Shown in pieces: positions 10,456 to 35,303 of a DNA stretch of 64,000 bases. Location of the stretch: positions 1-64,000 of the forward strand of contig CACHFM010000004.1 of NCBI GenBank assembly GCA_902579105.1, given 5' to 3'. Under the pieces are notes generated by a model. It was not told the DNA's origin, did not search any database, and saw only the letters and a program-made list of their open reading frames with translations. Source of the DNA: an uncultured Pelagibacteraceae bacterium (GTDB lineage Bacteria > Pseudomonadota > Alphaproteobacteria > Pelagibacterales > Pelagibacteraceae). Position numbers and translations under genes: made by a program. Each line of letters begins with the position of its first letter. Position 1 is the stretch's first letter.

Positions 10456-11136
10456 TTATAATTTATGAGATTCCGAAACTAGTTGAGCAACAATTGATAG
10501 AGCTATTTCAGGAGCTGATTTTCCACCAAGCTTAATACCTATTGGTCCATGTATAGAGTCAATCTCTTCTTTGCCAAACCCAGCTTCTTTTAATCTTAGA
10601 CATCTATTTACATGACTTTTTTTACTTCCAAGAGCACCAATATAAAAAAAATTATTTTTTAAAGCATGTTGTAATGCTGGATCATCTATTTTTGGGTCAT
10701 GGGTTAAAGCTATTAAAGCGGTATTAGAATTTGTTTTAATTTTTTTGAAAGCTTCTTTAGGCCAATCATTCATAATTTTAACATTTTTAAATCTTTTTTG
10801 AGATGTAAAGTATTTTCTTGGATCTATAATTGTAATTACAAAATTAAGATTCTCAACAAAATCAATTAAATACTGTGTAATATGAACAGCACCCACAATT
10901 ATAACTTCAACTGGTTTAATATAATTGTGAATAAATACTTGTGTTTCTTCAATAATACCACTTTTTTTTAAATTATAATAATTCTCAATTTCTTTTTTAT
11001 AACTTTCAAATTCTTTGCTTAATGTATTTCCCAATTCAAATATTTCGCTATTACCATTTGTTAAATTTGTTAAAACTGCAAATTGTTCTTTAGAAGATTT
11101 TTTTTTAATTATTTCTTTAAGTATTTCTATTTTCAT
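10456..11136 (-). CDS. XdhC-family protein, C-terminal Rossmann domain (split XdhC, part 2)
   Basis: VIIVGAVHITQYLIDF, IDPRKYFTS, YIGALGSKKSH, HGPIGIKLGGKSAPEIALSIVAQL; start placed at MKIEILKE (ATGA overlap with upstream ORF) rather than the listed longer start at 11196. Confidence 0.82.
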   Translation of the reverse strand: MKIEILKEIIKKKSSKEQFAVLTNLTNGNSEIFELGNTLSKEFESYKKEIENYYNLKKSGIIEETQVFIHNYIKPVEVIIVGAVHITQYLIDFVENLNFVITIIDPRKYFTSQKRFKNVKIMNDWPKEAFKKIKTNSNTALIALTHDPKIDDPALQHALKNNFFYIGALGSKKSHVNRCLRLKEAGFGKEEIDSIHGPIGIKLGGKSAPEIALSIVAQLVSESHKL

Positions 11137-11465
11137 GAATTGATTTTTTCTATAAAAACTATTAATTCTCCTCCACAAGCTAGGCCCACATTCCAAGCAC
11201 TCTCATCTGAAACTTTAAATTCTATTTTTTTGAATAAATTTTTATTTTTTATTAATTCTATGCATTCATTTATTACGTTTGCTTCGACACAACCACCGGA
11301 AACTGATCCTAAAAAGTCACCTTTTTCGTTGACTATCATTTTACTTCCAATTGGGCAGGGTGAAGATCCCCAAGTTTGAATTACTCTTGCAATAACTACT
11401 TTTTGGTTGGATTCAATCCATGAATTAGCCTCTTCTAAAATTGTTTTTTTAGATGATTTTTGCAT
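11133..11465 (-). CDS. XdhC/CoxI-family N-terminal domain protein (split XdhC, part 1)
   Basis: VIARVIQTWGSSPCPIGSKMIVNEKGDFLGSVSGGCVEANVI. Confidence 0.82.
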   Translation of the reverse strand: MQKSSKKTILEEANSWIESNQKVVIARVIQTWGSSPCPIGSKMIVNEKGDFLGSVSGGCVEANVINECIELIKNKNLFKKIEFKVSDESAWNVGLACGGELIVFIEKINS

Positions 11466-11500
11466 TTAATAAATTTTCTTAAATATCAACTTTTATTATT

Positions 11501-11788
11501 TTACATTTTTTCAAAAATAATATGTTCTCTAATAACATTATTTTCTAAATATTTTCTAGCCTCAACATATTCTTCAGAATTATAACAATTTTTAGCTGTC
11601 TCAATATCTGGAAATTCTGCAAGAGCTACTCTAACCATTTCCCTTCCTTCCAAAGTTATATTATTTGCACTTCTTGCTAATATTTTTCCGGAGTATTTTT
11701 CAACTGCTTCTCTAGCTTTTGCAGCATATTTTTTAAGTCTTTCTGCATCTTTTATTTCAGTATAATTTGCAATCCAATAAGCTTTCAT
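11501..11788 (-). CDS. DUF1330 family protein
   Basis: MKAYWIANYTEIKDAERLKKYAAKAREAVEKYSGKILAR, VRVALAEFPDIETAKNCYNSEEY. Confidence 0.85.
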   Translation of the reverse strand: MKAYWIANYTEIKDAERLKKYAAKAREAVEKYSGKILARSANNITLEGREMVRVALAEFPDIETAKNCYNSEEYVEARKYLENNVIREHIIFEKM

Positions 11789-11832
11789 GATTCTCCTTTT
11801 TAATTTTTTTTATTTATGATACCAAATTTACA

Positions 11833-12156
11833 GTGAAAAAATTATTTTTAAATTTTTTGAAAACTTTATTATTTTTAATATTTTCGTCAATTATACACGC
11901 TAACGCTGATGATTTATTTAATAAGGGAAAAGTTGTTTTTCTTGAAGCAGGTAATTGCGCTACGTGTCACGCTCTTTCTGATGCTGGATCGAACGCAATG
12001 ATTGGTCCAAATTTAAACGAAATCAGACCAGATATTCAGAGAATTATAATGGCAGTTAGAAATGGAATAGGAGTGATGCCTGCAATGGAGGGAATATTAT
12101 CTGATGAAGAAATAGATGCAGTTGCCCACTATGTTTCTATAAGTGCTGAGCAATAA
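11833..12156 (+). CDS. secreted mono-heme c-type cytochrome
   Basis: GTG start, N-terminal signal peptide, CATCH heme motif, IGPNL and distal Met (GVMPAMEGILSDEEIDAVAHYV). Confidence 0.9.
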   Translation: MKKLFLNFLKTLLFLIFSSIIHANADDLFNKGKVVFLEAGNCATCHALSDAGSNAMIGPNLNEIRPDIQRIIMAVRNGIGVMPAMEGILSDEEIDAVAHYVSISAEQ

Positions 12157-12161
12157 AAATT

Positions 12162-13061
12162 TTAACTATAGTTTTTAATCCAATGTTTTGCTATATCTAC
12201 TCTTTTACAAATCCAAATATCTTTAAATTTAGAAACATAATTTAAAAATTTTTTAAGAGATTGTATTCTGCCAGGTCTTCCAATTAATCTACAATGTAAA
12301 CCAACTGACATCATTTTTGGTGAAGTTTTCCCTTCCTCATAAAGAGCATCAAAACTATCTTTTATATAGTTATAAAATTGATCTCCTGAGTTAAATCCCT
12401 GATTAGTTGCAAATCTCATATCATTGTTATCAAGCGTATAAGGAACCATTAGTTGTTTTTTATTACCTTTTTTTACCCAATAAGGAAGATCATCACTGTA
12501 TGTATCGCTACAGTATAAAAAATTTCCATTATCAATTACTAAATCTAAAGTATTTACACTGCACCTCCCGGTATACCAACCTGCAGGTTGAGCACCAAAA
12601 TTTTTTTTTATAGATTTCACTGCAAGTTTCATATCATTCTTTTCTTTTTTTTTTGATACATTTTGATAATCAATCCATCTCCACCCATGACTAGCAACTT
12701 CGTAATTTGCTTTTCTTATAGCTGAGCAAACATCTTTATTTCTTTCCAATGCCATTCCCACTCCAAAAATAGTTAGTGGGATTTTTTTCTTATTAAATAA
12801 ATCATGAACTCTCCAAAATCCTCTTCTTGATCCATATTCATAAATCGATTCCATATTTAAGTGTCGACCTTTAATTGGTTTTGCTCCTATAATTTCTGAT
12901 AAAAATACCTCTGAAGTTTTATCACCATGAAGAATACAATTCTCTGCTCCTTCTTCATAATTTAGTACAAATTGCAAAGCTAACTTGGCATTTCCAGGCC
13001 ACTTTACCTTAATTTTTTTGGAACCATATCCTATCAAATCTCTTGGATATTTTTTTTTCAT
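12162..13061 (-). CDS. puuE: allantoinase PuuE (polysaccharide-deacetylase family)
   Basis: YPRDLIGYGSKKIKVKWPGNAKLALQFVLNYEEGAE; EYGSRRGFWRV; ASHGWRWIDYQ; located among ureide genes. Confidence 0.9.
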   Translation of the reverse strand: MKKKYPRDLIGYGSKKIKVKWPGNAKLALQFVLNYEEGAENCILHGDKTSEVFLSEIIGAKPIKGRHLNMESIYEYGSRRGFWRVHDLFNKKKIPLTIFGVGMALERNKDVCSAIRKANYEVASHGWRWIDYQNVSKKKEKNDMKLAVKSIKKNFGAQPAGWYTGRCSVNTLDLVIDNGNFLYCSDTYSDDLPYWVKKGNKKQLMVPYTLDNNDMRFATNQGFNSGDQFYNYIKDSFDALYEEGKTSPKMMSVGLHCRLIGRPGRIQSLKKFLNYVSKFKDIWICKRVDIAKHWIKNYS

Positions 13062-13549
13062 TTTTTTAAAATAATTTTATCTTTTTTAAATTTATAAATA
13101 ACAAGATTGTTTCCTTTTCCTTTTCTATCAACAATTAGAAAATTCATATTTTTCATAGAAATAAGTGGAAAGTGCCAAATGCCAGCTTTGTAATTCACTC
13201 CAGTTTGTTTAGGAACTAAAAAGGATTGGATTTTATTTATATCTGGTTTATCTCCTCTTGGAGCTACAAATACTATAAATTTTGTATCTTCCATTGGTAC
13301 AAAGGCTTGGCTTCCTAAAGGATGTTTTTCCATCATATCAATTTTCATAGGAAACCTTCTTTTTTTTGCTTTAAAAATACTAACTATTGCCTTGCCCTTT
13401 TTTTTAGAAGTATCTATGTTTATTAAATCATCAAACCTTTTTGCATATCCATCATTAATATTCATAGGATTTTTTTTAGATGTATTTATTAATTGTCCAA
13501 ATTTAGAAAAATTTTTTTTAGTTATATTTTTTGCTTTTACTAATTTCAT
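13058..13549 (-). CDS. allA: ureidoglycolate lyase
   Basis: HPLGSQAFVPM, YKAGIWHFPLI motifs; overlaps alc/puuE operon. Confidence 0.9.
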   Translation of the reverse strand: MKLVKAKNITKKNFSKFGQLINTSKKNPMNINDGYAKRFDDLINIDTSKKKGKAIVSIFKAKKRRFPMKIDMMEKHPLGSQAFVPMEDTKFIVFVAPRGDKPDINKIQSFLVPKQTGVNYKAGIWHFPLISMKNMNFLIVDRKGKGNNLVIYKFKKDKIILKK

Positions 13550-14532
13550 TTTACAAAAGTTCCAAATGCTCTAATTCTTGAAATTCCACCATCTGGATGG
13601 ATATTTATTTTAAGGTAATTTTCTTTATTTCTCTTTATTAAGAATTTTTTAAACACGTGTTTTTTGTTTGCAGAAAGTTTGGATTTATTTAAAATAAATT
13701 TCCAATTTTTTGAATTATTAGCAATTAATTTGTTTGATAGATTTTTTGAAATATTTGCAGTTTGAATAGAGCAAGTATCAGGGTAGTTTCCTTTAAAATG
13801 ATGAGTATCTATCTCTAATTTTTTTATTAAGCCTGGTTTTCCAAACTTTATTATAAGCCAATCAAAGTTTTTACCTCTACTTCTTCTTGTTTCCCAGCCA
13901 TCACCCATATTTTTTCCCTTACCAGGAGCTATTATATTTTCAGCTCTTCCAAAATGTTCATTATTACAACCAAGAATTGAAGCACCGTTTAAAACAGATG
14001 TTAAATTGATATTTTTGTTATTAAAAATGTTTTTTTCCATTTCAATTTTTCCATAAAGTCTAAGTCTTGCAACTCCACCATCAGGAAAGATATTTAGTTT
14101 TATATAATTAAAAACAGATTTGTTTTGTGACTTAAAGCTATGATTTTTGTTAGGCCCAAGTTTTTTTTTACCTAGTAACTGAATCCATTTTGTCTTTTTA
14201 TTAGGTTTAGTTCTAGTGAAACAACCCTCCACTGATGCGTGAGCAGGTTGATTTCCGTTAAAGTGCGTTGTGTCAATGTCTATATCAAAAATCTTTGCAT
14301 TTTTACCTAATTTCAAAATTAAATAATCAAAACCTTTTGATCTTCTTCTTCTAGTTTCCCATCCATCCATCCATTTACCATGTTTGTCAAATAGTCCATC
14401 TTTAAAAACTGGAGCATCTATGTTTAAAATTCGGTGAGCAGCTGCAAAAAAATCATCAGTCTTAAATATAATTTTAGATCCGATTCTAGGATCAGCTAAA
14501 TTGATCATTTTTGAATTTATAAATTTTTTCAT
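13546..14532 (-). CDS. alc: allantoicase
   Basis: Duplicated domain with KWMDGWETRRRRSKGFDYLILKLG / NMGDGWETRRSRGKNFDWLIIKFG and FPDGGVARLRLYG / HPDGGISRIRAFG. Confidence 0.93.
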   Translation of the reverse strand: MKKFINSKMINLADPRIGSKIIFKTDDFFAAAHRILNIDAPVFKDGLFDKHGKWMDGWETRRRRSKGFDYLILKLGKNAKIFDIDIDTTHFNGNQPAHASVEGCFTRTKPNKKTKWIQLLGKKKLGPNKNHSFKSQNKSVFNYIKLNIFPDGGVARLRLYGKIEMEKNIFNNKNINLTSVLNGASILGCNNEHFGRAENIIAPGKGKNMGDGWETRRSRGKNFDWLIIKFGKPGLIKKLEIDTHHFKGNYPDTCSIQTANISKNLSNKLIANNSKNWKFILNKSKLSANKKHVFKKFLIKRNKENYLKINIHPDGGISRIRAFGTFVK

Positions 14533-15026
14533 TTTTTATTTATTTCATTAAGACGAAAGGTTGCAATTTTTTTTACTTGTTTTTTTGCTTCTAGAAATTC
14601 ACTTTCTATATCACTTTGTATTCTTTGTCTAAAATTATTTAATATTTCATTTTTATTTTTGCCTTTTACAGCAATTATAAATGGAAAATTAAACTTTTTT
14701 TTATATTCTGAATTTAATTTTTTGAATTCTTCATATTCCTCATTAGAACATTCATTTAATTTTGCAGAAGCTTGTTCTGATATAGACTCTGAGGTCATTC
14801 TTTTTGCCACAGCAAGTTCAGGATGAGCATTTAATATTTCTAAAATTTTATCTCTATTATAACTTTCATAAATATTCAGCATTTTAATGCTAATATCTTC
14901 GAAGTTTTTAAAAGGTTTTGACTCAAAAGCTTCCGAAGCTATCGACTCAGTTTTTTCAAAAACATTACCAAATATTGACAAAAAATCGGACTTGTTAAGA
15001 TGGTTAATGTTATCTATTGTTCCCAT
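14529..15026 (-). CDS. uraD: OHCU decarboxylase (2-oxo-4-hydroxy-4-carboxy-5-ureidoimidazoline decarboxylase)
   Basis: ILNAHPELAVAKR, FKKLNSEYKKKFNFPFIIAVKGK. Confidence 0.93.
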   Translation of the reverse strand: MGTIDNINHLNKSDFLSIFGNVFEKTESIASEAFESKPFKNFEDISIKMLNIYESYNRDKILEILNAHPELAVAKRMTSESISEQASAKLNECSNEEYEEFKKLNSEYKKKFNFPFIIAVKGKNKNEILNNFRQRIQSDIESEFLEAKKQVKKIATFRLNEINKK

Positions 15027-15074
15027 ATAACTTTAAATAATTTAAGTTTGAAATTTAAATGATACTATAATTTT

Positions 15075-15425
15075 ATGACAAAGCTCACAACTCATGTTTT
15101 AGATGTATACTCTGGTAAACCTGGCAAGGGTATCTTGGTTGAGTTGTTTTATGTAAATAATTCAGAAAGAAATAAAATAACTTCAGTAAAACTTAATGAT
15201 GATGGTAGATCAAGTTCTCCATTAGCAGAAGGAGATATTTTTGTTAAGGGTAAATATGAATTAGTTTTTTATATTGGCGATTATTTTAAAAATATATCTA
15301 AAGTAAATGACATACCGTTTTTAGATGATGTAATTATCAGATTTGGTATTTCAGATCCCTCACAGCATTATCATGTACCTTTATTAGTTTCACCATGGAG
15401 TTATTCTACTTACAGAGGTAGTTAA
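15075..15425 (+). CDS. uraH: 5-hydroxyisourate hydrolase (transthyretin-like)
   Basis: LTTHVLDVYSGKPGKGILVELF ... C-terminal HYHVPLLVSPWSYSTYRGS. Confidence 0.96.
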   Translation: MTKLTTHVLDVYSGKPGKGILVELFYVNNSERNKITSVKLNDDGRSSSPLAEGDIFVKGKYELVFYIGDYFKNISKVNDIPFLDDVIIRFGISDPSQHYHVPLLVSPWSYSTYRGS

Positions 15426-16862
15426 GTGGTATCAAGCTCAGTTAAATTTTTATTAAATGATAAGACTCAAGAAATTAAAAACCCTGATCCAAACCAAACA
15501 ATACTTAATTATATTAGAACTGAATTAAAAAAAACTGGAACTAAAGAAGGGTGTTCAGAAGGTGGTTGTGGTGCTTGTACTATTGTTTTGGGCGAATTAG
15601 TTGGTGATGAAATAAAATATAGTTCAATAAATTCTTGTATTTCATTTGTACCATCTTTGAATGGTAAACAACTTTTGATTGTTGAGGATTTAGTTTCTAA
15701 GGATGGAACACTACATCCAGTGCAAGACGCGATGGTAAAATTCCATGGCTCACAATGTGGATTTTGTACACCAGGATTTGTTATGTCTTTATTTTCAATG
15801 TTTAAAAATAATAAAAGTTACAATAGTGAATTAATAACAGACTCGATATCAGGAAATTTATGCCGTTGCACTGGTTATAGACCTATTATTGATGCTGCAA
15901 AAAGTTTAAATAAGACAAACAAGAAAGATGAATTTAGCAAAAATAAAAGCAAAGTTATAAAACTATTAAAAAAAATTAGACCAAAAAATATTTATATTAA
16001 AAAAGATGATAAAGTTTATTTTTCTCCCAAGAATATAAAAGAGTTAAAAAATATAATTAAAAAGTATTCAAATTTTAATTTTCTTGCTGGTGGAACAGAT
16101 CTATCTTTAGCAGTAACAAAAGAAAGAAAAGAAATTCCATTTATAATTGATATAAAAGAAATAAAAGAATTAAATTTTATAAAAGTTAACAAAAATTATT
16201 TAGAGATTGGGGCTACTACTCCATTAATTAAATTTGAAAATGAAATTAAAAAATATTATCCAGATTTTTATTCAGTTCTTAAGAGATATGGATCTGTTCA
16301 GATTAGAAATGTAGGGACAATAGGTGGCAATATTGCAACAGCATCACCTATCGGAGATACGTTGCCAATTTTATTATCTTTAAATGCAGAAATTTTAATA
16401 GAGAGCATTAATGAAAAAAAAGTATTACCAATTAATAGTTTTTTCATTGACTATAGAAAAACTAAATTAAAAAAAAATGAATTTATCCGTTCAATAAAAA
16501 TACCATTATTTAAAAAAAATATATTTAAAGCATTTAAAATATCAAAAAGATTTGATGATGATATTTCGTCTGTTTGTGGATCTTTTAATTTTGAAATTAA
16601 TAAAAATAAAATTAAAGAAGTATTTATTGCTTATGGAGGCATGGCAGCTGTACCTAAAAGAGCCAAAGCATGTGAGGAAATTCTCAAGAATAAGCCTTTA
16701 ACAATCAATACTTTTAATCAAGCCAAAAATTACCTAGAAAAAGATTTAAGTCCTATTGGAGATATGAGGGCAAGTAAAGAATACAGGCTAGAGATAGCAA
16801 AAAATTTATTAATGAAATGTTTTGTAGAAATAAATTCTAATAAGTTAACAAGAGTTAATTAA
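15426..16862 (+). CDS. xdhA: xanthine dehydrogenase small subunit (2Fe-2S + FAD)
   Basis: GTG start; GCSEGGCGACTIVLGE, CGFCTPGFVMSL, NLCRCTGYRPI; FAD region RNVGTIGGNIATASPIGD. Confidence 0.95.
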   Translation: MVSSSVKFLLNDKTQEIKNPDPNQTILNYIRTELKKTGTKEGCSEGGCGACTIVLGELVGDEIKYSSINSCISFVPSLNGKQLLIVEDLVSKDGTLHPVQDAMVKFHGSQCGFCTPGFVMSLFSMFKNNKSYNSELITDSISGNLCRCTGYRPIIDAAKSLNKTNKKDEFSKNKSKVIKLLKKIRPKNIYIKKDDKVYFSPKNIKELKNIIKKYSNFNFLAGGTDLSLAVTKERKEIPFIIDIKEIKELNFIKVNKNYLEIGATTPLIKFENEIKKYYPDFYSVLKRYGSVQIRNVGTIGGNIATASPIGDTLPILLSLNAEILIESINEKKVLPINSFFIDYRKTKLKKNEFIRSIKIPLFKKNIFKAFKISKRFDDDISSVCGSFNFEINKNKIKEVFIAYGGMAAVPKRAKACEEILKNKPLTINTFNQAKNYLEKDLSPIGDMRASKEYRLEIAKNLLMKCFVEINSNKLTRVN

Positions 16863-19178
16863 ATGAGCAAAGAGAACTATATTGAGGAAATAAGACCACA
16901 CGATAGTGCCTACAAACATGTAAGCGGATACGCTGAGTATACTGATGATATTAATGAACCAAAAAATACAATTTATGGTGCTATTGGTTTAAGTAAAAAA
17001 GCACATGCAATAATTAAAAAAATAGATTTAACAGACGTAAAAAAAAGTGAAGGTGTTATTTCAATAGTTACACAAAGTGATATTCCAGGTAGAAATGATG
17101 TAGGACCAGTCTTTGATGGTGATACTATTTTCCCAACCAAAAAAGTTGAGTTTTATGGTCAACCTTTGTTTGCAGTTGCTGCTATAACGACAGAACTTGC
17201 AAGAAAAGCAGTATTAAAAGCTAAGATAACTTATAAAGAGTTAAAACCAATTATTACTATAAAGGAAGCTTTAAATAAAAAACAGTTCTTATTTAAACCT
17301 AGAAAAATAAAAAAAGGCAATCCTTCAAAGAAGATAAAAATATCAAAGAATGTTTTAAAAGGCAAATTTACAACAGGAAGTCAAGAGCACTTTTATTTAG
17401 AAGGGCAAGCAGCTTTTGTTGTTCCTAAAGAAGACGATAATTTTTTAGTTTATAGCTCAACACAACATCCATCAGAGACACAGCAATTAATTGCAAAAAT
17501 GTTCAATCAAAAAAGTAATTCAATTAATGTTGAGGTAAGAAGAATTGGAGGCGGGTTTGGAGGAAAAGAAACAAATTTCATGACGGCTTGTATTTGTGCA
17601 TTATTAGCTAAAAAAACAGGTCAGCCTGTTAAATTAAGATTAGATAGAGATGATGATATAATATTAACTGGTAAAAGGCATGAATTTTTATCTGAATATG
17701 AAGTTGGTTTTAGTGATGAAGGAATTATTGAAGGATTAAAAATAAACTTATCTTCAAATTGTGGAATGTCACCTGATTTATCAGTGGCAATAAACGAAAG
17801 AGCTTTGCTTCATATAGATAATGCATATTACATTTCAGATATTGAGGTAACAAACAATTTATGCAAGACAAATATTCCAACTTCAACTGCATTTAGAGGT
17901 TTTGGTGGAAACCAAGGAATGATGGCTATAGAAAATATTATAGATAATATTTCAAGGTACTTAAAAAAGGATCCTATAGAAGTTAGAAAGAAAAATTTTT
18001 ATCAAAAAGATAAAAAAAACTTAACTCACTATGGGATGACCATTGAAGATAATGTAATCAATGAAATATTTAAAAATTTAGAAAATAAATCTAATTATAA
18101 AAAAAGATATTCGGATATAAGAAAATTTAATGAAAAAAATAAATTTAAAAAGAAGGGTATAGCTATTACACCAGTAAAATTTGGTATTTCATTTACAACT
18201 ATTCATTTAAATCAAGCTGGAGCTTTAGTTCATATTTACACAGACGGAAGCGTATATTTGAACCATGGAGGTATAGAAATGGGTCAAGGAACCCATACAA
18301 AAATAGCTCAATTAGTGGCAAATTCTTTTGGATTACCATATAATTTAGTTCACATTTCATCAACGAATACATCTAAAGTTCCAAATACATCAGCCAGTGC
18401 TGCCTCATCAACTACCGATCTTAATGGAGCCGCAGCATTAAATGCAGTAGCAAAAATTAAACTAAATTTAGAAAAATTTATTAAGAAAAAATATAAGATC
18501 TATAATCAAGAAGCAGTTTATAAAAATCAATATATAATATTTGGAAATAGAATATTTGAATTTAAAAGCATTATTCAAGAGGCATATTTAAATAGAATTT
18601 CTCTTTCATCTTCAGGTTTTTATTCAACGCCAAAAATTAATTTTGATAAAAAAAAATTTAGAGGAAGACCCTTTTATTATTTTTGTTATGGTGCAGCTGT
18701 TTCTGAAGTAACTATAGATACATTAACTGGTGAAAATGTTTTAGAAAGAGTTGATATTTTGCATGATGCTGGAAAACCAATAAATCCAGCACTTGAACTA
18801 GGTCAGATTGAAGGTGGTTTTGTACAAGGACAAGGTTGGTTGACTATTGAGGAGCTTAATTGGAAATCAAACGGACAGATTACAACTTTTTCTCCATCAA
18901 CATACAAAATACCAGCAGTAAGTGATATCCCAAAAAAATTTAATGTGGAAATTTTCAAAGAAGGAACAAATAAAGAAAAAGTTGTTAATAAGGCAAAGAC
19001 AACTGGTGAACCTCCTTTAATGTTAGCCATGAGTGTTTTTTATGCAATTAAAGACGCAGTTGCTTCAATTGGAAATTATCAGATTGCACCAGAACTCAAT
19101 GCACCAGCAACTCCTGAAAGAATTTTAATGAGTATTAACAAAATTAAAAATAAAAAAAAAAATAAAAATGGAAGATAA
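16863..19178 (+). CDS. xdhB: xanthine dehydrogenase molybdopterin-binding large subunit
   Basis: RRIGGGFGGKETNF, TAFRGFGGNQGM, NHGGIEMGQGTHTKIAQ, TGEPPLMLAMSVFYAIKDA. Confidence 0.95.
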   Translation: MSKENYIEEIRPHDSAYKHVSGYAEYTDDINEPKNTIYGAIGLSKKAHAIIKKIDLTDVKKSEGVISIVTQSDIPGRNDVGPVFDGDTIFPTKKVEFYGQPLFAVAAITTELARKAVLKAKITYKELKPIITIKEALNKKQFLFKPRKIKKGNPSKKIKISKNVLKGKFTTGSQEHFYLEGQAAFVVPKEDDNFLVYSSTQHPSETQQLIAKMFNQKSNSINVEVRRIGGGFGGKETNFMTACICALLAKKTGQPVKLRLDRDDDIILTGKRHEFLSEYEVGFSDEGIIEGLKINLSSNCGMSPDLSVAINERALLHIDNAYYISDIEVTNNLCKTNIPTSTAFRGFGGNQGMMAIENIIDNISRYLKKDPIEVRKKNFYQKDKKNLTHYGMTIEDNVINEIFKNLENKSNYKKRYSDIRKFNEKNKFKKKGIAITPVKFGISFTTIHLNQAGALVHIYTDGSVYLNHGGIEMGQGTHTKIAQLVANSFGLPYNLVHISSTNTSKVPNTSASAASSTTDLNGAAALNAVAKIKLNLEKFIKKKYKIYNQEAVYKNQYIIFGNRIFEFKSIIQEAYLNRISLSSSGFYSTPKINFDKKKFRGRPFYYFCYGAAVSEVTIDTLTGENVLERVDILHDAGKPINPALELGQIEGGFVQGQGWLTIEELNWKSNGQITTFSPSTYKIPAVSDIPKKFNVEIFKEGTNKEKVVNKAKTTGEPPLMLAMSVFYAIKDAVASIGNYQIAPELNAPATPERILMSINKIKNKKKNKNGR

Positions 19179-19638
19179 AATAAAATTTATGGCAAAAGCC
19201 ATTGAACTTTCTATAAATAGTGCAAACACTATTGGTGGACCTTTTGGGAGTGTCATAGTTAAGGATAAAAAAATTATTGCAGAGGGTTCTAATAGAGTGA
19301 CCTCTTCAAATGATCCAACTGCTCATGGAGAAATTGTAGCAATTCGAGAAGCTTGTAAAAAATTAAAAACTTTTGATCTGTCGGGTTGTGAGATTTATAC
19401 ATCTTGTGAACCTTGTCCAATGTGTCTTTCTGCAATTTATTGGTCAAGATTAGATAAAATATATTATGCAAATACAAGAGAAGATGCAAAAAATATAGAC
19501 TTTGATGACTCTTTTATTTATTTAGAGATACCAAAAAAAATAAGTGATAGAAAAATTAAAATGACACAAATGCTTAGAGATGATGCTTTAAAAGCATTTG
19601 AAATTTGGGACAAAAAAGTAGATAAAATAAAATATTGA
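19168..19638 (+). CDS. guaD: guanine deaminase-like nucleobase deaminase (CDA fold)
   Basis: HGEIVAIREACKKL, PCPMCLSAIYWSRLDKIYYANTREDA; between xdhB and puuD. Confidence 0.8.
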   Translation: MEDKIKFMAKAIELSINSANTIGGPFGSVIVKDKKIIAEGSNRVTSSNDPTAHGEIVAIREACKKLKTFDLSGCEIYTSCEPCPMCLSAIYWSRLDKIYYANTREDAKNIDFDDSFIYLEIPKKISDRKIKMTQMLRDDALKAFEIWDKKVDKIKY

Positions 19639-20546
19639 TGGAATTTTTACCTTATGCAATAAAATGGTTAGAAGTTATTCTGAGATGGGGTCATGTATTA
19701 TTTGCAATATTATGGGTTGGCAATAGTTTTTTATTTAATTACTTAGACAACAATTTAAATAAAAATATAACAAGTGATGATATTGATGGTGAAGGATATC
19801 TAATGCATTCTGGTTTTTTTTATAAACTATCAAGGTTAAAAACATCACCACCCCAGGATTATTTAAATAGATTAGTAATCTTTAAATGGCAAAGTTATTT
19901 AACTTTTGTAACTGGAATGTTGCTCCTAATTGTAATTTATTATTATAATGCCGGAGTATTAATGGTTGATAAACGTGTTTTGTTAATACCTCCTAGTTAT
20001 GCCATTATTATCTCACTTTTATCATTAATTGTTTTTTGGTTTGTTTATGATCTTTTATGTAAATCTAAATTGATTGAAAATAATATATTATTTATTTCTA
20101 CAGCAATCATTTTGCTAGCACTTGTTTCTTTTGCTATGACTAAATTATTTGGTCCAAAATTTGCAATTTTAAGTGTTGGATTAATTATAGGTACTAATAT
20201 GTTTGGCAATGTTTTTACAGTAATTATACCTAATCAAATGAACATCATTAGTAGTAGCGAAAGAGGTGAAAAATTTGATATGAGCTTATCCTTAGCGGCC
20301 AAACAACGCTCAATTCATAATAACTATTCTACTTTTTTGGTATTATTTATAATGCTTTCGGGCCATTCTAGTTTTTTAGTTTATCATCAATACAACTGGT
20401 TAATATTATGTGCGATTGCTATTATTTCTGGAGTGGCAAGACATTATTTTAATTTAAGAGGAAGAAACATTCACAGGTTGTATATCTTAATTTCTTCAAT
20501 AATAGCTCTTATCGTTCTTGCAGTTTTAGTTTTATTATTTAAATAA
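19635..20546 (+). CDS. puuD: urate oxidase PuuD, membrane domain only (no C-terminal cytochrome c)
   Basis: ILRWGHVLFAILWVGNSFLFNYLDN, MFGNVFTVIIPNQ, multi-TM; ORF ends LVLLFK with no CxxCH. Confidence 0.83.
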   Translation: MMEFLPYAIKWLEVILRWGHVLFAILWVGNSFLFNYLDNNLNKNITSDDIDGEGYLMHSGFFYKLSRLKTSPPQDYLNRLVIFKWQSYLTFVTGMLLLIVIYYYNAGVLMVDKRVLLIPPSYAIIISLLSLIVFWFVYDLLCKSKLIENNILFISTAIILLALVSFAMTKLFGPKFAILSVGLIIGTNMFGNVFTVIIPNQMNIISSSERGEKFDMSLSLAAKQRSIHNNYSTFLVLFIMLSGHSSFLVYHQYNWLILCAIAIISGVARHYFNLRGRNIHRLYILISSIIALIVLAVLVLLFK

Positions 20547-20561
20547 TTAGTTATAAAAATT

Positions 20562-21086
20562 ATGACAGAAAAATTAATTGTTAGCTGGGATGAGTATAAT
20601 AAAACAGTTGAGAAACTAGCAATTCAAATTCATGAAAGTGGTTATAAACCTACAATCTTAATTGGAATTATGCGTGGAGCCGCACCGATGATAGATGTCT
20701 TAAGCAGAATTTTTAAATTAAAATGTGCATATCTTGCTGTTGAGTCATATAGTGGAAAGGGTGTAGAGGATGAACAGGGTGATATTGTGTTCTCAAGAGA
20801 AATGAGTTCCATCGCTCCAAATATGGGTGGAAAAATTCTTTTATGTGATGATTTATCTGATACTGGAATTACTTTTAATAAAAGTATTGATTGGTTAAAA
20901 AAATATGAACCGATAAAAAATAAAATTGAAGATATAAAAACGGCAACACTTTTTAAAAAGAAAAAATCTACTTTTGAACCTGATTATTGCGCAGTTAAAC
21001 TTCCAGATAACCCTTGGATTGTTCAGCCGTTTGAAGTTTATGAAGAACTAAGAATTGAAGATATTAAAGAGAAACATCTTAAATAA
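20562..21086 (+). CDS. purine phosphoribosyltransferase (xanthine/hypoxanthine PRT-like)
   Basis: PRPP-binding motif LLCDDLSDTGITF; TILIGIMRGAAPMIDVLSR. Confidence 0.82.
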   Translation: MTEKLIVSWDEYNKTVEKLAIQIHESGYKPTILIGIMRGAAPMIDVLSRIFKLKCAYLAVESYSGKGVEDEQGDIVFSREMSSIAPNMGGKILLCDDLSDTGITFNKSIDWLKKYEPIKNKIEDIKTATLFKKKKSTFEPDYCAVKLPDNPWIVQPFEVYEELRIEDIKEKHLK

Positions 21087-27005: not shown

Positions 27006-28328
27006 ATGACTTCAAGTAAAACACAAGCGGGCTCAACAAGTAGTCCAGACAAGAAACTTCCATTAAACAAATCCATACCTTTAGGAATTCAGCATGTACT
27101 AGCAATGTTTGCGGGTAATATAACTGTTCCTATAATTGTGGCTGGAGTTTTTGGTCAAACGCCTGAACAAAAAATATTTTTAATTCAAATGGCTTTATTT
27201 GTTGCTGGAGTTGCAACAATAATTCAAACTGTTGGATATAAAGATATTGGTGCAAGGCTACCTATAATTCAAGGTACAAGTTTTGCATTTATACCAATCA
27301 TGTTACCATTTAAAGCTGCAGGATTAGGTGCAGTTTTTACAGCAGCATTCATTGGAGGAATTTTTCAAATTTTCATTGGAAAAGTTTTAAAACCAATAAG
27401 ACATCTTTTTCCACCATTAGTCACAGGTATAGTTGTATTAATGATCGGATTTAGTTTGCTTAAAGTTGGTTTCATGTATGCTGGTGGTGGTGGATGGTTA
27501 ATGAATAATAAACCTGAAATTTTTGCAAATACAAATCACTTAACTGTAGCTTTTACTGTTTTTATAGTTGCTATTTTTTTTAATAGAAAAGGTAAAGGAA
27601 TGGCTTCTTCAGCTTCGATACTAATTGGAATAGTTGCTGGATTTTTAGTTGCCATGGCGTTAGGCATGGTTAACTACGGTAAAATTGCATCAGCATCTTG
27701 GTTTGCTCTTCCAATGCCACTTCAATATGGAATAGATTTTGTTCCAGGTGCAATAATTCTAATGTTATTTATGTCAATTGTTACAACAATTGAAACAATT
27801 GGAGACATAAGTGCTACCACAATGGGCGGTGCTAAAAGAGAAGCGACCGACAAAGAATTATCAGGTGGAATAATGGCAGACGGAGTTGGAACTGCTTTTG
27901 GTGCCTTGTTCAATGCAATGCCCAATACATCCTATTCTCAAAATGCAGGATTAGTTGCATTTACAGGAGTAGTAAGCAGACATGTTGGAACTATAGCTGG
28001 AGTAATTTTAGTTCTAATGGGTTTATTTCCAAAATTAGGTGGAATAATTGCTGCAATGCCAGAATCTGTAATTGGTGGAGCTGCGATAATTATGTTTGGA
28101 ATGATAGCAGCTGCAGGAATTAAATTAATTTCAAAATCAGAAATGAGTCAAAGAAATTTACTAATCTTAGCTCTTTCATTATCTTTTGGAATTGGAATGT
28201 CATTATTGCCTGACTTTGTTAAAAATATTCCAGATTTTGGAATAAGTTTAAAACTACTGTTAACTACTGGACTTATACCTGCTGGATTATTAGCATTTGT
28301 TTTAAATGCAATAATGTCAGAAAAATAA
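27006..28328 (+). CDS. NCS2-family purine (xanthine/urate/uracil-type) permease
   Basis: SIPLGIQHVLAMFAGNITVPIIVAG, RLPIIQGTSFAFIP, NAMPNTSYSQNAGLVAFTGVVSRHVG; GGAGG ribosome site upstream. Confidence 0.92.
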   Translation: MTSSKTQAGSTSSPDKKLPLNKSIPLGIQHVLAMFAGNITVPIIVAGVFGQTPEQKIFLIQMALFVAGVATIIQTVGYKDIGARLPIIQGTSFAFIPIMLPFKAAGLGAVFTAAFIGGIFQIFIGKVLKPIRHLFPPLVTGIVVLMIGFSLLKVGFMYAGGGGWLMNNKPEIFANTNHLTVAFTVFIVAIFFNRKGKGMASSASILIGIVAGFLVAMALGMVNYGKIASASWFALPMPLQYGIDFVPGAIILMLFMSIVTTIETIGDISATTMGGAKREATDKELSGGIMADGVGTAFGALFNAMPNTSYSQNAGLVAFTGVVSRHVGTIAGVILVLMGLFPKLGGIIAAMPESVIGGAAIIMFGMIAAAGIKLISKSEMSQRNLLILALSLSFGIGMSLLPDFVKNIPDFGISLKLLLTTGLIPAGLLAFVLNAIMSEK

Positions 28329-28373: not shown

Positions 28374-28820
28374 TTATTTGATTTCGATAAGTTTTTTCTT
28401 TTTATGTTCTGGAACTATTCTCTCACAAGAAATTGTTAAAAGACCATCTTTAAGTTCAGCATTACCAATTTTAACGTCATCGGCAATAGTGAATGATCTT
28501 GCAAATTGTCTTTGAGAAATTCCTTTATGAATAATTTCTCCATCAACATTACTATCTTCAGATTTATTAACTCTTTTAGTTCTTACAGTTAATAAATTAT
28601 CTTCAAACTCAACCTCAACATCTTTTTTGTTAAAGCCAGCTAATGCTAATTCGATAGCATAATTGTCCTTACCAGTTTTTCTGATGTTGTAAGGTGGATA
28701 ATTTGATTGCATAGTCAAATTACCATTCCCTAACATATTTTCAAATTGGTCAAACATATCATCAAAACCAATTGAAAAAGGTCTTAGGGAGTTAAATATA
28801 GATAGATCCTTACTTGTCAT
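28374..28820 (-). CDS. small heat shock protein (Hsp20/IbpA family)
   Basis: Alpha-crystallin domain YNIRKTGKDNYAIELALAGFNKKDVEVEFEDNLLTVRT; start placed at MTSKDL with AGGAGG upstream (listed ORF starts at 28841). Confidence 0.93.
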   Translation of the reverse strand: MTSKDLSIFNSLRPFSIGFDDMFDQFENMLGNGNLTMQSNYPPYNIRKTGKDNYAIELALAGFNKKDVEVEFEDNLLTVRTKRVNKSEDSNVDGEIIHKGISQRQFARSFTIADDVKIGNAELKDGLLTISCERIVPEHKKKKLIEIK

Positions 28821-28881
28821 AAATCCTCCTTTATTAAGCAAGTTATTTTAAATAAGTCCCATTAGGCGACTTACTGATTAT

Positions 28882-28954: not shown

Positions 28955-29785
28955 ATGAAACAAATATTTTTGATAATTTTTTTAACTTTGTTGTTATTTA
29001 ATATCTCTCAAGGAGATGAGACATCAAATAAACAAAAAGAATTAGAAACAAAAATAAAACTTTTAGAAAAAGAGCTTGAAATTGAAAAGTTAAAAAAAGA
29101 ACTTGAGGAACAAAAAAAAGCAAATGAGTCAAAAAAAAATGGTGAAAACTTAAAATCTTCCAATAAAAAGCAAAACAAAAATATAAAAAAACCAACTATT
29201 ATTGGTGATGATGATGTTTTGAAAGAGGTAAAATTACTTGGAAGTTTTAAAGAACCAGAGAGATATCCTGAGAGTTTTAAGGAAGAATTTTTCAAAGGAT
29301 GTAAAAAGTTTTCATGTATTGGAAGAAAATCAACAGAAAACATGTCAAAAGTGTTTGCTAAATCTCAAAAATATAATTTAAAAAATCCAGGTAACCAGAT
29401 AAAGGGTATGGCATTATTTGAAATTTATTATCTTAATGTTTTAAGAAAAAATGAGAAAAAAATAGATATTTTTTTAGAAAATTGGCCTACTGAAAAAAAG
29501 AAAACTAAAGAAATTATTAAATTAATAAAATTAAATAAATCAAGAGAAAAAATGAGAAATGCTCTTGGTATGGATTTAAATACATCAGTAGAGGATGCAA
29601 TTGAAATTTATTCAATAATGGCAAATTTTTTAAATATGGGGACTCCCAAAGAACAAAAAATTTCAAAGGAATTAAAGTTAAGAAATAAATTCTTAGAAGA
29701 TTATAAATCTGTTGTCTCAAAATTTAATTCACAATTTAAAAGTTACGAGAATGAAAATTTATATTATCAAATTGAAAAAAAATAA
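28955..29785 (+). CDS. secreted coiled-coil protein of unknown function
   Basis: Signal peptide MKQIFLIIFLTLLLFNISQG; Glu/Lys heptad region; only two Cys, as GCKKFSC (Cx4C). Confidence 0.8.
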   Translation: MKQIFLIIFLTLLLFNISQGDETSNKQKELETKIKLLEKELEIEKLKKELEEQKKANESKKNGENLKSSNKKQNKNIKKPTIIGDDDVLKEVKLLGSFKEPERYPESFKEEFFKGCKKFSCIGRKSTENMSKVFAKSQKYNLKNPGNQIKGMALFEIYYLNVLRKNEKKIDIFLENWPTEKKKTKEIIKLIKLNKSREKMRNALGMDLNTSVEDAIEIYSIMANFLNMGTPKEQKISKELKLRNKFLEDYKSVVSKFNSQFKSYENENLYYQIEKK

Positions 29786-29788
29786 ATT

Positions 29789-32700
29789 ATGAAACTTTTT
29801 AAAATATTATTAACTTTTTTGATATTACTGCAAACTACAATAACTTTAGCTAATGAAAAATTGGATAAAAACTTAGATAAAGCTTTTAAAAAATTTTCTA
29901 AAGATATTAATAAAGTAATAAAAAAATCTGAAAAGTTAAAAGCCCCAGAAAATAAAGAGTCACAAATTATTGATAAGGCAATTAATGAATTAAAAGTGGC
30001 AAATGAGTTTATTAAAGAAACTTATATATCTGGCGATCTTGAGAATACGGAAAATACTCTTGATTTTATTTCAAGATCAATTTCTGATATCCAAAAGCTA
30101 GTACCTCAACAGATATCCTCTGATATGTCTAATATTGATATGACAACAATAAACCCTGAAGATATAAAAAAAATTAAAATAATCACTGATGGAATGAAAA
30201 AGTCAAAAAATGAAAAGTTAGTAGAATTTGTAGACCAATTAGAATCATTATCTAATAAAGGTCTAAATGTTTATTCGATTAGCTATAATTTAAATAATCT
30301 TGGGGTTGATACAATAAATTTCACAGATATTTTGAAAGCTACAAATTCTAACCAAGAATTAAGCCAAAAAACTTTAAATTCTATTGAAAAAAATCTTGAA
30401 AAGGCAGGTGTTAGTTCAAAAGATATTAAACAGATTAAAGATGATATAAAAAAAGTAAGTTTACCAAAAGATGGAGCATCTAATCCTGATGATGATCCTA
30501 AAGTTAAAGAGCTAAAAAATCTAATCGAAAAAGCAAAAGGTGACAGAGAGAATGCTGAAAAAGCCAGACAACAAAGGGATGCAGCAGTTAAAGCTGCAGA
30601 AGAAGCTCAAGAAACTGCAAAAAAAGCTCAAGAAACTGCAAATTCAATAGCTGATAAAACTTCAAAAGCTGCAAAAGAAGCAGCAGAAAAAGCACAAGAG
30701 GCTGTAAAAGAAGCAAAAAAAGCAGCCGGAGAAGCACGATCAGCTACCTTTAAATATAATGATATGAAAAGTTGGTTGAAATCTACTGAGGATGCAATTA
30801 AGAAAATTGAGGGTTCAATTCAAGGAGTTAATGAAAATTATAATTCTTTAGAAACTATTTATAATAAAAGTGTTTCAGCAAAAAATATTAAAGATATTTC
30901 TAATAAAGATTTTTTAAGATTAGAAGGTTTAGCATCTAGAAGAAAATTCGAAAAACCAGGTGGGTTTAAAGCAGCAGTAATGGACCCTGCAGATTTGTTA
31001 AGATTTGATGTTGTTAAAAAGGCGAAAGAATTAGGTTTATCAGAGAATGAGGCAAATATACTTGGTAATAATGCAATGGTCAGATATGGAGATATGAAAT
31101 TTCTACAATCAAATGCATTTGCAAAATTTAAAGCCCAAGGTATGACAAATAGTGAAGCTTCAAAAAAATCTTTTGAAATTCTACAGGATAAATATGGTGA
31201 TTGGATGAATAATTTAGGATTTGGACTTAACGAGAGTAAAGAAAATAAAACAAGCAATATTGATACATGGCTTATAAGTGTTGCAATGGCAAAAAAGGCT
31301 GCAACCGATTTTGGAACATTAGACCCGAATGATGAGAAAGAATTAAGATCTTCAGCAAAGTCTACAGCCGATAAAGTTTTACAAGAAGCTTTAAATCAAG
31401 GTTTCTCAAAGGAGGAAGCAGAAGAGATTGCAAATAACACATTTGATACAATGTTTAGTAGTTTAAAATTTGCTTATCAGACAGGAGAAGCTCTTCTTCA
31501 AAAAGGATTGTCTGAAGAAGAAATGGATCAAGTATTATCAAAAATGATGAAAGATAGATTTGGTACAATTGAAGCAGACTTTTTTACTTCTGGAAATTTA
31601 GGAGATATAGGAGATGAAAAAGCTATTAAGTTTTATGTCACTGGACTAGGAGCTTTAAAATATGCAATGGAGAATAGAGAAAAATCTATAAATCCAGATG
31701 ATGTTGATGAAGTAGAAAAAGCAATTTCAGATACAGAAAAACTTGTAAGAGAAAGAGCTGCAAAGTTAGGAATAACTGATCAAGCTAAAATAGATAAATT
31801 CGCGTTAGATGCAAAAAATTCGGTAATTGATCTATATCATTTTGGATATGCAATTGAGGATTATTTAGGTGGACCCGAAAACAAAGGACCTTGTGATCAA
31901 AATTGTATTGATGAAAATATAGATTTCATTTTGGATAAATTTTACTCTAAATGGGGCTCTAGATTATTTGATGCTACTGGTGAAGAGCTTAAATTAGATA
32001 CTTCAAAAATTGATGTTTATGTAACAGGATTAGTTGTAACCGAGTCAACTGAGGTAGCTAAGCGAGCTAAAGAAAATGCTGAAAAAGCAGTTAAAGAGGC
32101 TGAAAATTCACTTAACAAAGCAAAAGAATTAGAACAAAAAGCTAAAGATGCTCAAGCTAAAGCCGATAAAATTAAAGACAAAACTTCTCAAGAATATAAA
32201 GATGCAGTGGCTAAAGCAGAATCTGCACAAAAAGCTGCTAAAGCTGCAAGAGACGCAGCTGAAAAAGCAAAAAATGCTTCAGAGGAAGCAAGAAAAGCTT
32301 ATGAGGATGCTGAAAAAGAGTTAGCTAGGCTTGAAAAAGAACTTAAAAATCTTTTAGATGAAATAGGAGGACCTGGTGATTTAGGACCTGGTGGGAAAGG
32401 TGCTTGGGATCCAAGAAAAACAATTGCTCAAAACAAAGAGAGAAAAATGGAAATTAGTGAAATTAAATCTAATAAAAATTTATCTAATGTTATGAATTCT
32501 ATGAGTGATAAACAGGTTTATGGTTTATTAGCTAGTGGTGTAATAAATTCAGATTTAGTAAATGAATATATAAAAGATGGGAAAAACGCTCCTATACTAG
32601 CTTGTGGAACATCTGATTGTGAAGTTGGAGATTTAAAATATGTTTTTGAGGAAGCGGATAGAGAAATGAAAATGAGCTCATTTAAAGGTAATTCTTTACT

Positions 32701-33205
32701 TACTAAAGTAATGAACTCCTTAACTGATAGACAAGCATATGAATTAATTGCATCAGCAGCAATTCCATCAGATATGGTAAATGAATATATTCAAAACGGA
32801 AAGAATGCTCCTATTTTACCATGTGGATCTGCTGAATGCTCAATGATCGAATATATGAACCCAGGCTCAACAAAAGCTGTTGGAGAAGGTGTTGATGTAG
32901 TTGGGATTGGAGAGGTTCAAGGTGCCGCTACTGACATATTGGCAGCAACAAAAGATACAAACGTTAAATCTGCTGCGGATGCTCTTGGCGAAGATCTAGC
33001 AGCTACAATCGCAGAAATTCAATCTACTTTAGATACTGGAGCTATAATTAGAGGTTCAGACGGGGTTGCTATGTCAGTACAAGAAGCCTTAGAATCTATG
33101 CCAGAGGGTGGTCGAGTTAATCCAGATGGAACCTTAGAGCCAGTAGTTGGTGATGATCCAAATGATGCTGAGAGGCCGGGAGGTTGCACTGATGGTACTT
33201 GTTAA
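29789..33205 (+). CDS. large secreted Ala/Lys/Glu-rich coiled-coil repeat protein (1138 aa) of unknown function
   Basis: Signal peptide; two long AxxA/K/E-rich helical segments; tandem 44-aa C-terminal repeat; eight Cys in four Cx3-4C pairs; starts 3 nt after the preceding stop. Confidence 0.82.
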   Translation: MKLFKILLTFLILLQTTITLANEKLDKNLDKAFKKFSKDINKVIKKSEKLKAPENKESQIIDKAINELKVANEFIKETYISGDLENTENTLDFISRSISDIQKLVPQQISSDMSNIDMTTINPEDIKKIKIITDGMKKSKNEKLVEFVDQLESLSNKGLNVYSISYNLNNLGVDTINFTDILKATNSNQELSQKTLNSIEKNLEKAGVSSKDIKQIKDDIKKVSLPKDGASNPDDDPKVKELKNLIEKAKGDRENAEKARQQRDAAVKAAEEAQETAKKAQETANSIADKTSKAAKEAAEKAQEAVKEAKKAAGEARSATFKYNDMKSWLKSTEDAIKKIEGSIQGVNENYNSLETIYNKSVSAKNIKDISNKDFLRLEGLASRRKFEKPGGFKAAVMDPADLLRFDVVKKAKELGLSENEANILGNNAMVRYGDMKFLQSNAFAKFKAQGMTNSEASKKSFEILQDKYGDWMNNLGFGLNESKENKTSNIDTWLISVAMAKKAATDFGTLDPNDEKELRSSAKSTADKVLQEALNQGFSKEEAEEIANNTFDTMFSSLKFAYQTGEALLQKGLSEEEMDQVLSKMMKDRFGTIEADFFTSGNLGDIGDEKAIKFYVTGLGALKYAMENREKSINPDDVDEVEKAISDTEKLVRERAAKLGITDQAKIDKFALDAKNSVIDLYHFGYAIEDYLGGPENKGPCDQNCIDENIDFILDKFYSKWGSRLFDATGEELKLDTSKIDVYVTGLVVTESTEVAKRAKENAEKAVKEAENSLNKAKELEQKAKDAQAKADKIKDKTSQEYKDAVAKAESAQKAAKAARDAAEKAKNASEEARKAYEDAEKELARLEKELKNLLDEIGGPGDLGPGGKGAWDPRKTIAQNKERKMEISEIKSNKNLSNVMNSMSDKQVYGLLASGVINSDLVNEYIKDGKNAPILACGTSDCEVGDLKYVFEEADREMKMSSFKGNSLLTKVMNSLTDRQAYELIASAAIPSDMVNEYIQNGKNAPILPCGSAECSMIEYMNPGSTKAVGEGVDVVGIGEVQGAATDILAATKDTNVKSAADALGEDLAATIAEIQSTLDTGAIIRGSDGVAMSVQEALESMPEGGRVNPDGTLEPVVGDDPNDAERPGGCTDGTC

Positions 33206-33227: not shown

Positions 33228-35303
33228 TTAAATTTTATTGCTGATTTTTAATGCAAATGCATAGTCAATAGCAATTTCCTCTATTGCGCCATCTCTTCCA
33301 GATTTTCCACCATGACCTGCATTCATCTCTGTTTTTAAAAGAAGTAAATTATTATCAGTTTTATATTGTCTCAATTTTGCTGTAAATTTTGCAGGTTCAT
33401 CAAATAATACTCTATTATCACTTAAACTAGTTGTAATTAACATATGTGGGTAATCCATTTTCTTAATATTATTATAAGGAGCATATGAAAATATATAATC
33501 AAAATGTTCTTTATTATCTTTTGCATTTCCAAATTCATCAAATTCTCCTACTGTTAAAGGTAGAGAATGATCTAGATTTGTTGTTAAAGAATCTACAAAA
33601 GGTACAGCCATAATAATTCCTAGAAATAATTCAGGAGATTGATTCACTACCGCGCCCATTAATAAACCTCCTGCAGAGCCACCCATACCAATTATTTTTC
33701 CTTTTGATGTATAATTATTTTCGATTAAATATCTTGCTGCGTAAATATAATCTTCAAATGTATTCTTTTTATTTATTAACTTGCCCTCTTTCCACCATTT
33801 CATACCCTTTTCCATACCACCTCTAATGTGTGCAGTAGCCCAAATTATATCTCTATTAATCAAACTTAATCTTGTAGATGAAAAGCTAGGACTTATCGAG
33901 TTTCCATATGAACCATATCCATAAAGTAATAATTTGGCCGAACCGTCAATTTTAGTTTTTTTGTGCCTTGTAATTGTTAAAGGTACAAGTCTTCCATCAT
34001 GTGATTTAAATTCAATTCTCTCAACAATATAATTATCTTTATCATGTCCTGAAGGAATTTCTTGTTCCTTTACTAACTTCTTTGATTTATTTAATAAGTT
34101 ATATTTGTAAACTCTTGATGGAGTTTTAGGCGAAGAATATCCTAAGTAAACGTCGTCCGTGTTTCTATTTTTTTGTATTAAAGATACTCCCGGTACATAA
34201 ATTTTTTCATCTGAAAAGATTAGTTCTTCTTCTGTATTATTAGAAATATTTCTAACAAATAATTTATCTAAAGCATTAGAAGTTTCAGAGCGAATTATCC
34301 AGTTTTGTAAAAAAGTACATCCGCCAATTAAAACCTCATCTTTTGCTGGAATGAATGTTTTCCAATTTTGATTTTCTAAACTTTCAGAAATATCAATTTT
34401 AAAGTCTTCTGCATTTTTATTAGTATGATTATAAAATTTACCATTCCATGAATTTATAGAGTAGAGAATTCCTTTTTCTCTCTTCATTATTAATTTGGGA
34501 ATTGGTTTTTTTTCTTTAGAGCTAAAGTAGTATTGTTCTGAAGTATTATGATCTGATGTATTTATAAAATAATATTTTTCATCTGAGCTTAATCCAATAC
34601 TTACAGTAAATGCCTCAGTTTTTTCCTCAAATATTAATTCATCATCATCTTTATAATTTCCAATTTCATGCCTATAGATTTTTCTTGCTCTATGATTTTC
34701 ATCTAGTTTTGAATAAAAAATATATTTATCGTCTAAACTAAAATTTATACTACCAGATGTTTCTGTAATTTTTTTTGAAATAGTTTTCTTAGTTTTTATG
34801 TCTCTTATAAAAATTGTATAATATTCAGAACCCATAGTGTCCAATGAATAACCTAAATATTTATCATTGTTACTTACTTCTAAATCACCAACTCCAAAGT
34901 ATTCAGTTTTTAGTTTTTCTTTTTCTTTGTCACCGTTCCAAATTTCTTCAATCTCACTTGAGCCTATTTTTTTACGAAGTTTAATTGAGTAATTTCCTTC
35001 AACCGTAGTTTTTGTCCAATATTCGTAAGTATGATCTTTGTATGGAAGAGATTCATCATCTAATTTTATTCTTCCTTTGATTTCATCAAAAAGTTGTTTT
35101 TGTAATTTTTTTGTGTCCTTTAAATGGTATTCAGCATAAGAATTTTCTTCTTCTAAATATTTCTCAACTTCAGGATTTAATTTTGTTTTATCTTTTAAAA
35201 CTTCTAAAATATTTTTTTGATGTATCCAGCTATAATTGTCCTCCCACTCTATATTGTGACAAGATTTTATCTCTGGTTTTTTTTTAAGATATGGTACTTT
35301 CAT
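33228..35303 (-). CDS. oligopeptidase B / prolyl oligopeptidase family (S9A) serine peptidase
   Basis: GMGGSAGGLLMGAVVNQSPELF nucleophile region; LLYGYGSYGNSISPSFSSTRLSLI; C-terminal NAGHGGKSGR His. Confidence 0.92.
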   Translation of the reverse strand: MKVPYLKKKPEIKSCHNIEWEDNYSWIHQKNILEVLKDKTKLNPEVEKYLEEENSYAEYHLKDTKKLQKQLFDEIKGRIKLDDESLPYKDHTYEYWTKTTVEGNYSIKLRKKIGSSEIEEIWNGDKEKEKLKTEYFGVGDLEVSNNDKYLGYSLDTMGSEYYTIFIRDIKTKKTISKKITETSGSINFSLDDKYIFYSKLDENHRARKIYRHEIGNYKDDDELIFEEKTEAFTVSIGLSSDEKYYFINTSDHNTSEQYYFSSKEKKPIPKLIMKREKGILYSINSWNGKFYNHTNKNAEDFKIDISESLENQNWKTFIPAKDEVLIGGCTFLQNWIIRSETSNALDKLFVRNISNNTEEELIFSDEKIYVPGVSLIQKNRNTDDVYLGYSSPKTPSRVYKYNLLNKSKKLVKEQEIPSGHDKDNYIVERIEFKSHDGRLVPLTITRHKKTKIDGSAKLLLYGYGSYGNSISPSFSSTRLSLINRDIIWATAHIRGGMEKGMKWWKEGKLINKKNTFEDYIYAARYLIENNYTSKGKIIGMGGSAGGLLMGAVVNQSPELFLGIIMAVPFVDSLTTNLDHSLPLTVGEFDEFGNAKDNKEHFDYIFSYAPYNNIKKMDYPHMLITTSLSDNRVLFDEPAKFTAKLRQYKTDNNLLLLKTEMNAGHGGKSGRDGAIEEIAIDYAFALKISNKI

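Follow-up and report, generated by a model that had tools for sequence, protein, structure and literature searches.

The window is a 64,000-nt stretch (positions 1 to 64,000, forward strand) of contig CACHFM010000004.1 from an uncultured Pelagibacteraceae bacterium (GenBank assembly GCA_902579105.1) with a genome of 1.2 Mb in 39 contigs. It carries two collinear ORFs on the forward strand, here called S (28955-29785, 276 aa) and B (29789-33205, 1138 aa), which share a reading frame and are separated by a 3-nt gap between the S stop and the B start (junction TAA ATT ATG). Both begin with a signal peptide of the Sec/SPase I type, as read from the N-terminal sequences (MKQIFLIIFLTLLLFNISQG and MKLFKILLTFLILLQTTITLANE, respectively); a lipobox was looked for at the N termini of both proteins, and none was seen. 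The first-pass annotation had reported the same gene arrangement and two signal peptides, and both are confirmed here. The features of the locus are as follows:

28374-28841, minus strand: Hsp20 gene, left flank, marking the insertion site together with the right flank
28955-29785, plus strand: gene S, 276 aa (AlphaFold2 model, family alignments A1 and A4)
29207-29644, plus strand: constant domain of S, predicted all-helical, the family signature (conserved columns in the homologue alignment)
29300-29317, plus strand: CKKFSC pair (C-x4-C) of S, C116 and C121
29789-33205, plus strand: gene B, 1138 aa
29858-30370, plus strand: constant N-domain of B, residues 24-194 (HMM A7, hhalign)
30497-30886, plus strand: coil 1, predicted continuous helix, residues 237-366 (low-confidence AlphaFold2 model)
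30983-31315, plus strand: helical repeat 1 (HMM from L096, iE 1.3e-6), strongly diverged from relative G200
31331-31687, plus strand: helical repeat 2 (HMM from L096, iE 7.9e-4)
31709-32071, plus strand: helical repeat 3, degenerate, containing CDQNC (aligns with repeats 1 and 2)
32000-32365, plus strand: coil 2, predicted continuous helix, residues 738-859 (AlphaFold2 model)
32603-32620, plus strand: CGTSDC, in the first ~73-aa CX4C repeat
32822-32839, plus strand: CGSAEC, in the second ~73-aa CX4C repeat
33185-33202, plus strand: CTDGTC at the C terminus of B
33228-35303, minus strand: S9 family peptidase gene (prolyl oligopeptidase-like), right flank

Protein S consists of the signal peptide (residues ~1-20), a charged helix (~22-63), a disordered linker (~64-84), the constant helical domain (~85-230), and a C-terminal helix. 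The constant domain is confidently predicted to be all-helical, with an AlphaFold2 pLDDT of ~90 or above for most of residues 85 to 230, and its MR, F, E, and K columns are invariant among the 17 homologues aligned. Fold searches with S against PDB and BFVD (viral) gave no match at E values up to 0.001.

In B, the signal peptide and the constant N-domain are followed by coil 1, three helical repeats, coil 2, two CX4C repeats, and a tail ending in CTDGTC. Repeats 1 and 2 were scored with a held-out HMM built from the homologue L096 only; repeat 3 alone was not significant against this model. The helical repeat was found only in the three genomes that have the cassette at the Hsp20/S9 site. AlphaFold2 modeled B as nearly all helix, with continuous helices at residues 237-366 and 738-859 (mean pLDDT 48, i.e., low confidence), and both helices have a hydrophobic period of 3.5 residues. 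The helical/coiled-coil scaffold proposed at first pass is consistent with these data.

All ten cysteines of S and B fall into five pairs with C-x3-C or C-x4-C spacing, at residues 116/121 of S and 702/706, 939/944, 1012/1017, and 1133/1138 of B, in agreement with the original observation that every cysteine lies in a short pair. Such pairing is beyond chance, as none of 300,000 random placements of eight cysteines left every cysteine paired within 5 residues. It also holds family-wide: 67 family proteins have 57 cysteine pairs, mostly C-x4-C, and 4 unpaired cysteines, compared to 125 pairs and 1336 unpaired cysteines in 438 other ORFs from the same loci (spacing limit 12 residues for the family and 7 for the control; only two family pairs exceed 7). 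C116 and C121 of S recur in 90% or more of the close homologues, and a pair near the C terminus is common to most B proteins outside a Met/Gly-rich sister subfamily, whose B proteins have no cysteine. Disulfide formation by these pairs appears feasible in view of the DsbB and the two DsbA proteins encoded in the genome.

Searches of S and B against Pfam, NCBIfam, and PDB sequences gave no family above threshold, only weak coiled-coil-type matches, and those against PHROG and PADLOC none beyond coiled-coil bias, so the initial impression that the proteins belong to no recognized family stood. The PHROG, PADLOC, and SMC-like matches were rejected as coiled-coil composition; those in PADLOC were solely to JetC/LmuB coil regions (best 3.4e-8), for an exported protein. 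Catalytic families were not seen in S or B, neither an export gene nor a secretion signal or outer-membrane anchor was recognized, and the literature searched yielded no account of this family.

Homologues were recovered among uncultured Pelagibacteraceae, so that the window's genome is probably a Pelagibacter. The S model A1, which contains the window's S, matches it with an E value of 4.7e-76; independently of A1, protein P0003 as sole query recovers it at 1.6e-13. In the HMM and synteny search across Pelagibacterales that had been suggested, the S model gave convincing matches in 24 of 296 genomes of the order (~8%), all from two genera of one family, with weak 20-bit matches in G187 and G145 left out of this count. 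Samples of 288 genomes of the class, searched for S, and of 199 genomes of the phylum, searched for the B N-domain, each yielded a match only in the window's own genome. From a single-protein search of 60 relatives, two candidates were rejected, one falling in an autotransporter subtilisin-like ORF (G010) and the other in a ParE-like topoisomerase ORF (G056); matches of similar size in G042, G054, G057, and G059 were assumed to be false likewise. Absence of the gene pair from relatives had been named at first pass as an argument against the proposed system: the exact pair is indeed missing from most relatives, but the S-B family is present.

Family members of S have ~160 to 300 aa and share the constant helical domain of ~150 aa. 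Those of B range from 317 to 1981 aa and combine the constant N-domain of ~170 aa with a variable part of ~120 to ~1800 aa which, depending on the type, is made of long coils, tandem helical repeats, or Met/Gly/Ala-rich sequence, or is at most a short tail. In relative G022, S matches a 672-aa protein (E 1e-13) whose first half is S-like and whose second half resembles the N terminus of B. Overall, 29 of 38 family loci are split and 9 are fused, a few of them near-identical and thus not representing 38 independent events. All but one of the 29 split loci (28) have B directly downstream of S, with a spacing between -41 and +5 nt; the exception is one of three S copies in G200, near a contig end (L051, 11477-13481), where a B-like 444-aa fragment lies 5′ of S. 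Since the fused forms occupy two separate, supported clades of the S tree, fusion or fission of the two genes probably took place more than once. HMM A7, representing the B N-domain, detects this domain in every split B protein and in 7 of the 9 fusions (at ~4e-27 or better in the four at the rho site and at ~1e-7 to 1e-8 in three of the five others). In the Met/Gly-rich subfamily (14 loci) the N-domain has diverged, with an hhalign probability of 97.8 (E 8e-13), and model A8, built from this subfamily without the window's B, matches the latter at 1.1e-7. The adjacency, together with fusions in two clades, makes it likely that S and B act as a functional pair.

Of 20 relatives examined at the Hsp20/S9 site, 19 had the two flanking genes directly adjacent and one was interrupted by a contig end. 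The S-B cassette is therefore an insertion and accessory. It is found at the same site in G200 and G299, while other family members lie beside cinA, nadA/nadC, rho, or elsewhere.

Some further observations concern the surroundings of the cassette. Upstream (5′) of the Hsp20 gene, positions 28815-28875 of the minus strand resemble a ROSE-like RNA thermometer with two hairpins, the second of which pairs CTTGCTT with the Shine-Dalgarno sequence; the element is conserved across 10 aligned sequences, with no compensatory changes, and matches full-length Rfam ROSE_3 with an E value of 0.014, under the gathering score. A permease gene (27006-28328, plus strand; uracil/xanthine type by eye) adjoins Hsp20 and may also be accessory, as just 2 of the 19 relatives with an empty Hsp20/S9 site were found to have a close copy there. 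Positions 11083-21086 contain genes that read, from sequence only, as purine/allantoin breakdown-like, including xanthine dehydrogenase-like subunits.

Compared to G200, which carries the nearest relative of the cassette, S and B had 4-fold-site identities of 0.70 and 0.68, respectively, versus 0.20 to 0.60 for the other genes compared, and the cassette is absent from the Hsp20/S9 site of G144, a closer relative than G200. DNA identity along B was uneven: 97% at residues 505-760, only 63% at residues 350-505, and 66% in the tail. By these figures the cassette is younger than its flanks and B is a mosaic; the simplest explanation is that the cassette was transferred recently and its modules were swapped. 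The dN/dS values (0.16 for S, 0.09 to 0.25 for B) indicate that the cassette is under purifying selection where retained. The earlier argument, that a streamlined genome rarely keeps so large a gene without strong selection, needs changing, since the cassette is accessory (~8% of genomes) and mobile. The patchy presence, the recent exchange, the swapping of rod segments, and the occupation of one chromosomal site by very different B types would all suit a variable surface coat, adhesin, or phage decoy with a rod diversified by phage or grazer selection. We consider this explanation unlikely, as the low dN/dS, the lack of an outer-membrane anchor or autotransporter domain, and PADLOC matches that amount to coil bias speak against it. 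Less probable still is a broader proposal, that S-B is a mobile, module-swapping, lineage-specific exported system with two undescribed domains by which Pelagibacter lineages alter a surface or envelope structure under pressure from phages, grazers, or competitors.

A different function is suggested by the neighbors of the Met/Gly-rich loci (e.g., L055-L058 and L090-L092), which adjoin genes for DUF1800, DUF1501, a PF14099 polysaccharide lyase, a sulfatase, lyase-like secreted proteins, and a GH10-like protein (10 loci), with two glycosyltransferase-like genes in four of the loci. These genes suggest a polysaccharide link for this subfamily; DUF1800 and DUF1501 genes, in addition, accompany bacterial chitin synthase genes in a conserved operon (PMC5122149). 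S and B could accordingly serve an extracellular polysaccharide as its protein matrix or carrier and assist in its secretion, retention, or processing. For the system as a whole this appears an improbable though arguable alternative, because such genes are absent at the Hsp20/S9, cinA, nadA/nadC, and rho sites and a carbohydrate-binding domain was not seen in S or B.

Two other origins were weighed. Phage-derived tail-fiber or tape-measure genes might account for the weak PHROG matches between the Ala-rich coils and tail fibers (best 4e-9); this idea is largely refuted and barely credible given the signal peptides on S and B, the ordinary chromosomal neighbors, and the lack of S/B relatives in the viral contigs and phage records searched. 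An antibacterial particle like the Streptomyces umbrella toxins, or another polymorphic toxin, would fit the constant N-terminal part and variable remainder of B, and in Foldseek the top PDB hit for the B model was UmbC (8w20; E 2.6e-4, prob 0.91). That match, however, came from a low-confidence model with TM-scores of 0.08 to 0.12 and an rmsd of 64 Å and probably reflects coils only. No ALF family was found in S or B in Pfam at E values up to 1, no toxin family in B above the cut-off in Pfam or NCBIfam, and no UmbA/UmbB-like genes; the window's neighbors are Hsp20 and, downstream of B, a conserved opposite-strand S9 peptidase rather than an immunity gene. A toxin is thus very improbable, and the cassette does not resemble phage-derived genes or a toxin with its immunity gene.

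Overall, S-B probably has a structural role in the envelope or at the cell surface. More specifically, we tentatively favor, at a likelihood somewhat short of even, an exported, structural, nonenzymatic, disulfide-stapled helical assembly specific to the Pelagibacteraceae. Both proteins would pass the inner membrane via Sec, and the constant domain of S would bind the constant N-domain of B, the two forming one chain in the fused proteins. The variable remainder of B would then be an extended rod; in the window's B, the two helices of ~120 to 130 residues could form an antiparallel hairpin around the three helical repeats, which is speculative owing to the mean pLDDT of 48 of the B model. Small loops, each held by a C-x(2-4)-C disulfide that DsbA/DsbB would form, would close the rod, one of these disulfides lying at the C terminus. 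The constant parts would preserve the assembly function while lineages swap the rod, as might be expected for something facing the outside or a variable partner. The data show the gene pairing, the signal-peptide-like N termini, the constant and variable domains, the two clades of fusions, the cysteine pairing, the insertion at a site that is otherwise empty, and the recent horizontal exchange; we infer the S-B binding, the hairpin, the disulfides, the location (periplasm or surface), and the structural role.

Pelagibacter are the most abundant ocean bacteria and have very small genomes. Despite such tiny genomes, a cassette of >4 kb, encoding large exported proteins absent from the family libraries, is retained and passed around by some lineages. 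If the structural reading is true, it is a new accessory envelope or surface component in these bacteria, and its constant parts could be tested apart from its swappable ones. Interest would be high should a surface or defense role be true. The S domain, the B N-domain, and the insertion sites make the family searchable in metagenomes and metaproteomes.

Among known systems, the PrgA protein of enterococci is a Gram-positive surface adhesin. Like B it is exported and has a long coiled-coil stalk, and it was the second Foldseek match (PDB 6z9l; E 0.01, TM 0.09 to 0.13), with no sequence relation found. Two S homologues share a SHOCT motif (PF09851) immediately 3′ of the signal peptide, whereas the motif is normally C-terminal (PMC3581485) and is absent from the window's S, whose Pfam search (P0001) returned 0 families; SHOCT has been proposed as an oligomerization domain, an initial test giving no support (PMC3581485). 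The DUF1800/DUF1501 genes of the operons mentioned above (PMC5122149) adjoin the Met/Gly-rich S-B pairs but not the window's cassette, and S and B themselves are neither DUF1800 nor DUF1501 proteins. As to the umbrella toxins, no ALF repeats, lectin, trypsin-like partner, or toxin domain were seen in S-B, yet UmbC (PMC11062931; PDB 8w20) and B are alike in being large and exported and in having a long coiled-coil stalk, helical repeats, and a small partner. Exported coiled-coil and helical-repeat proteins are well known as a kind, and what is new here is the two domains, undescribed in the libraries searched.
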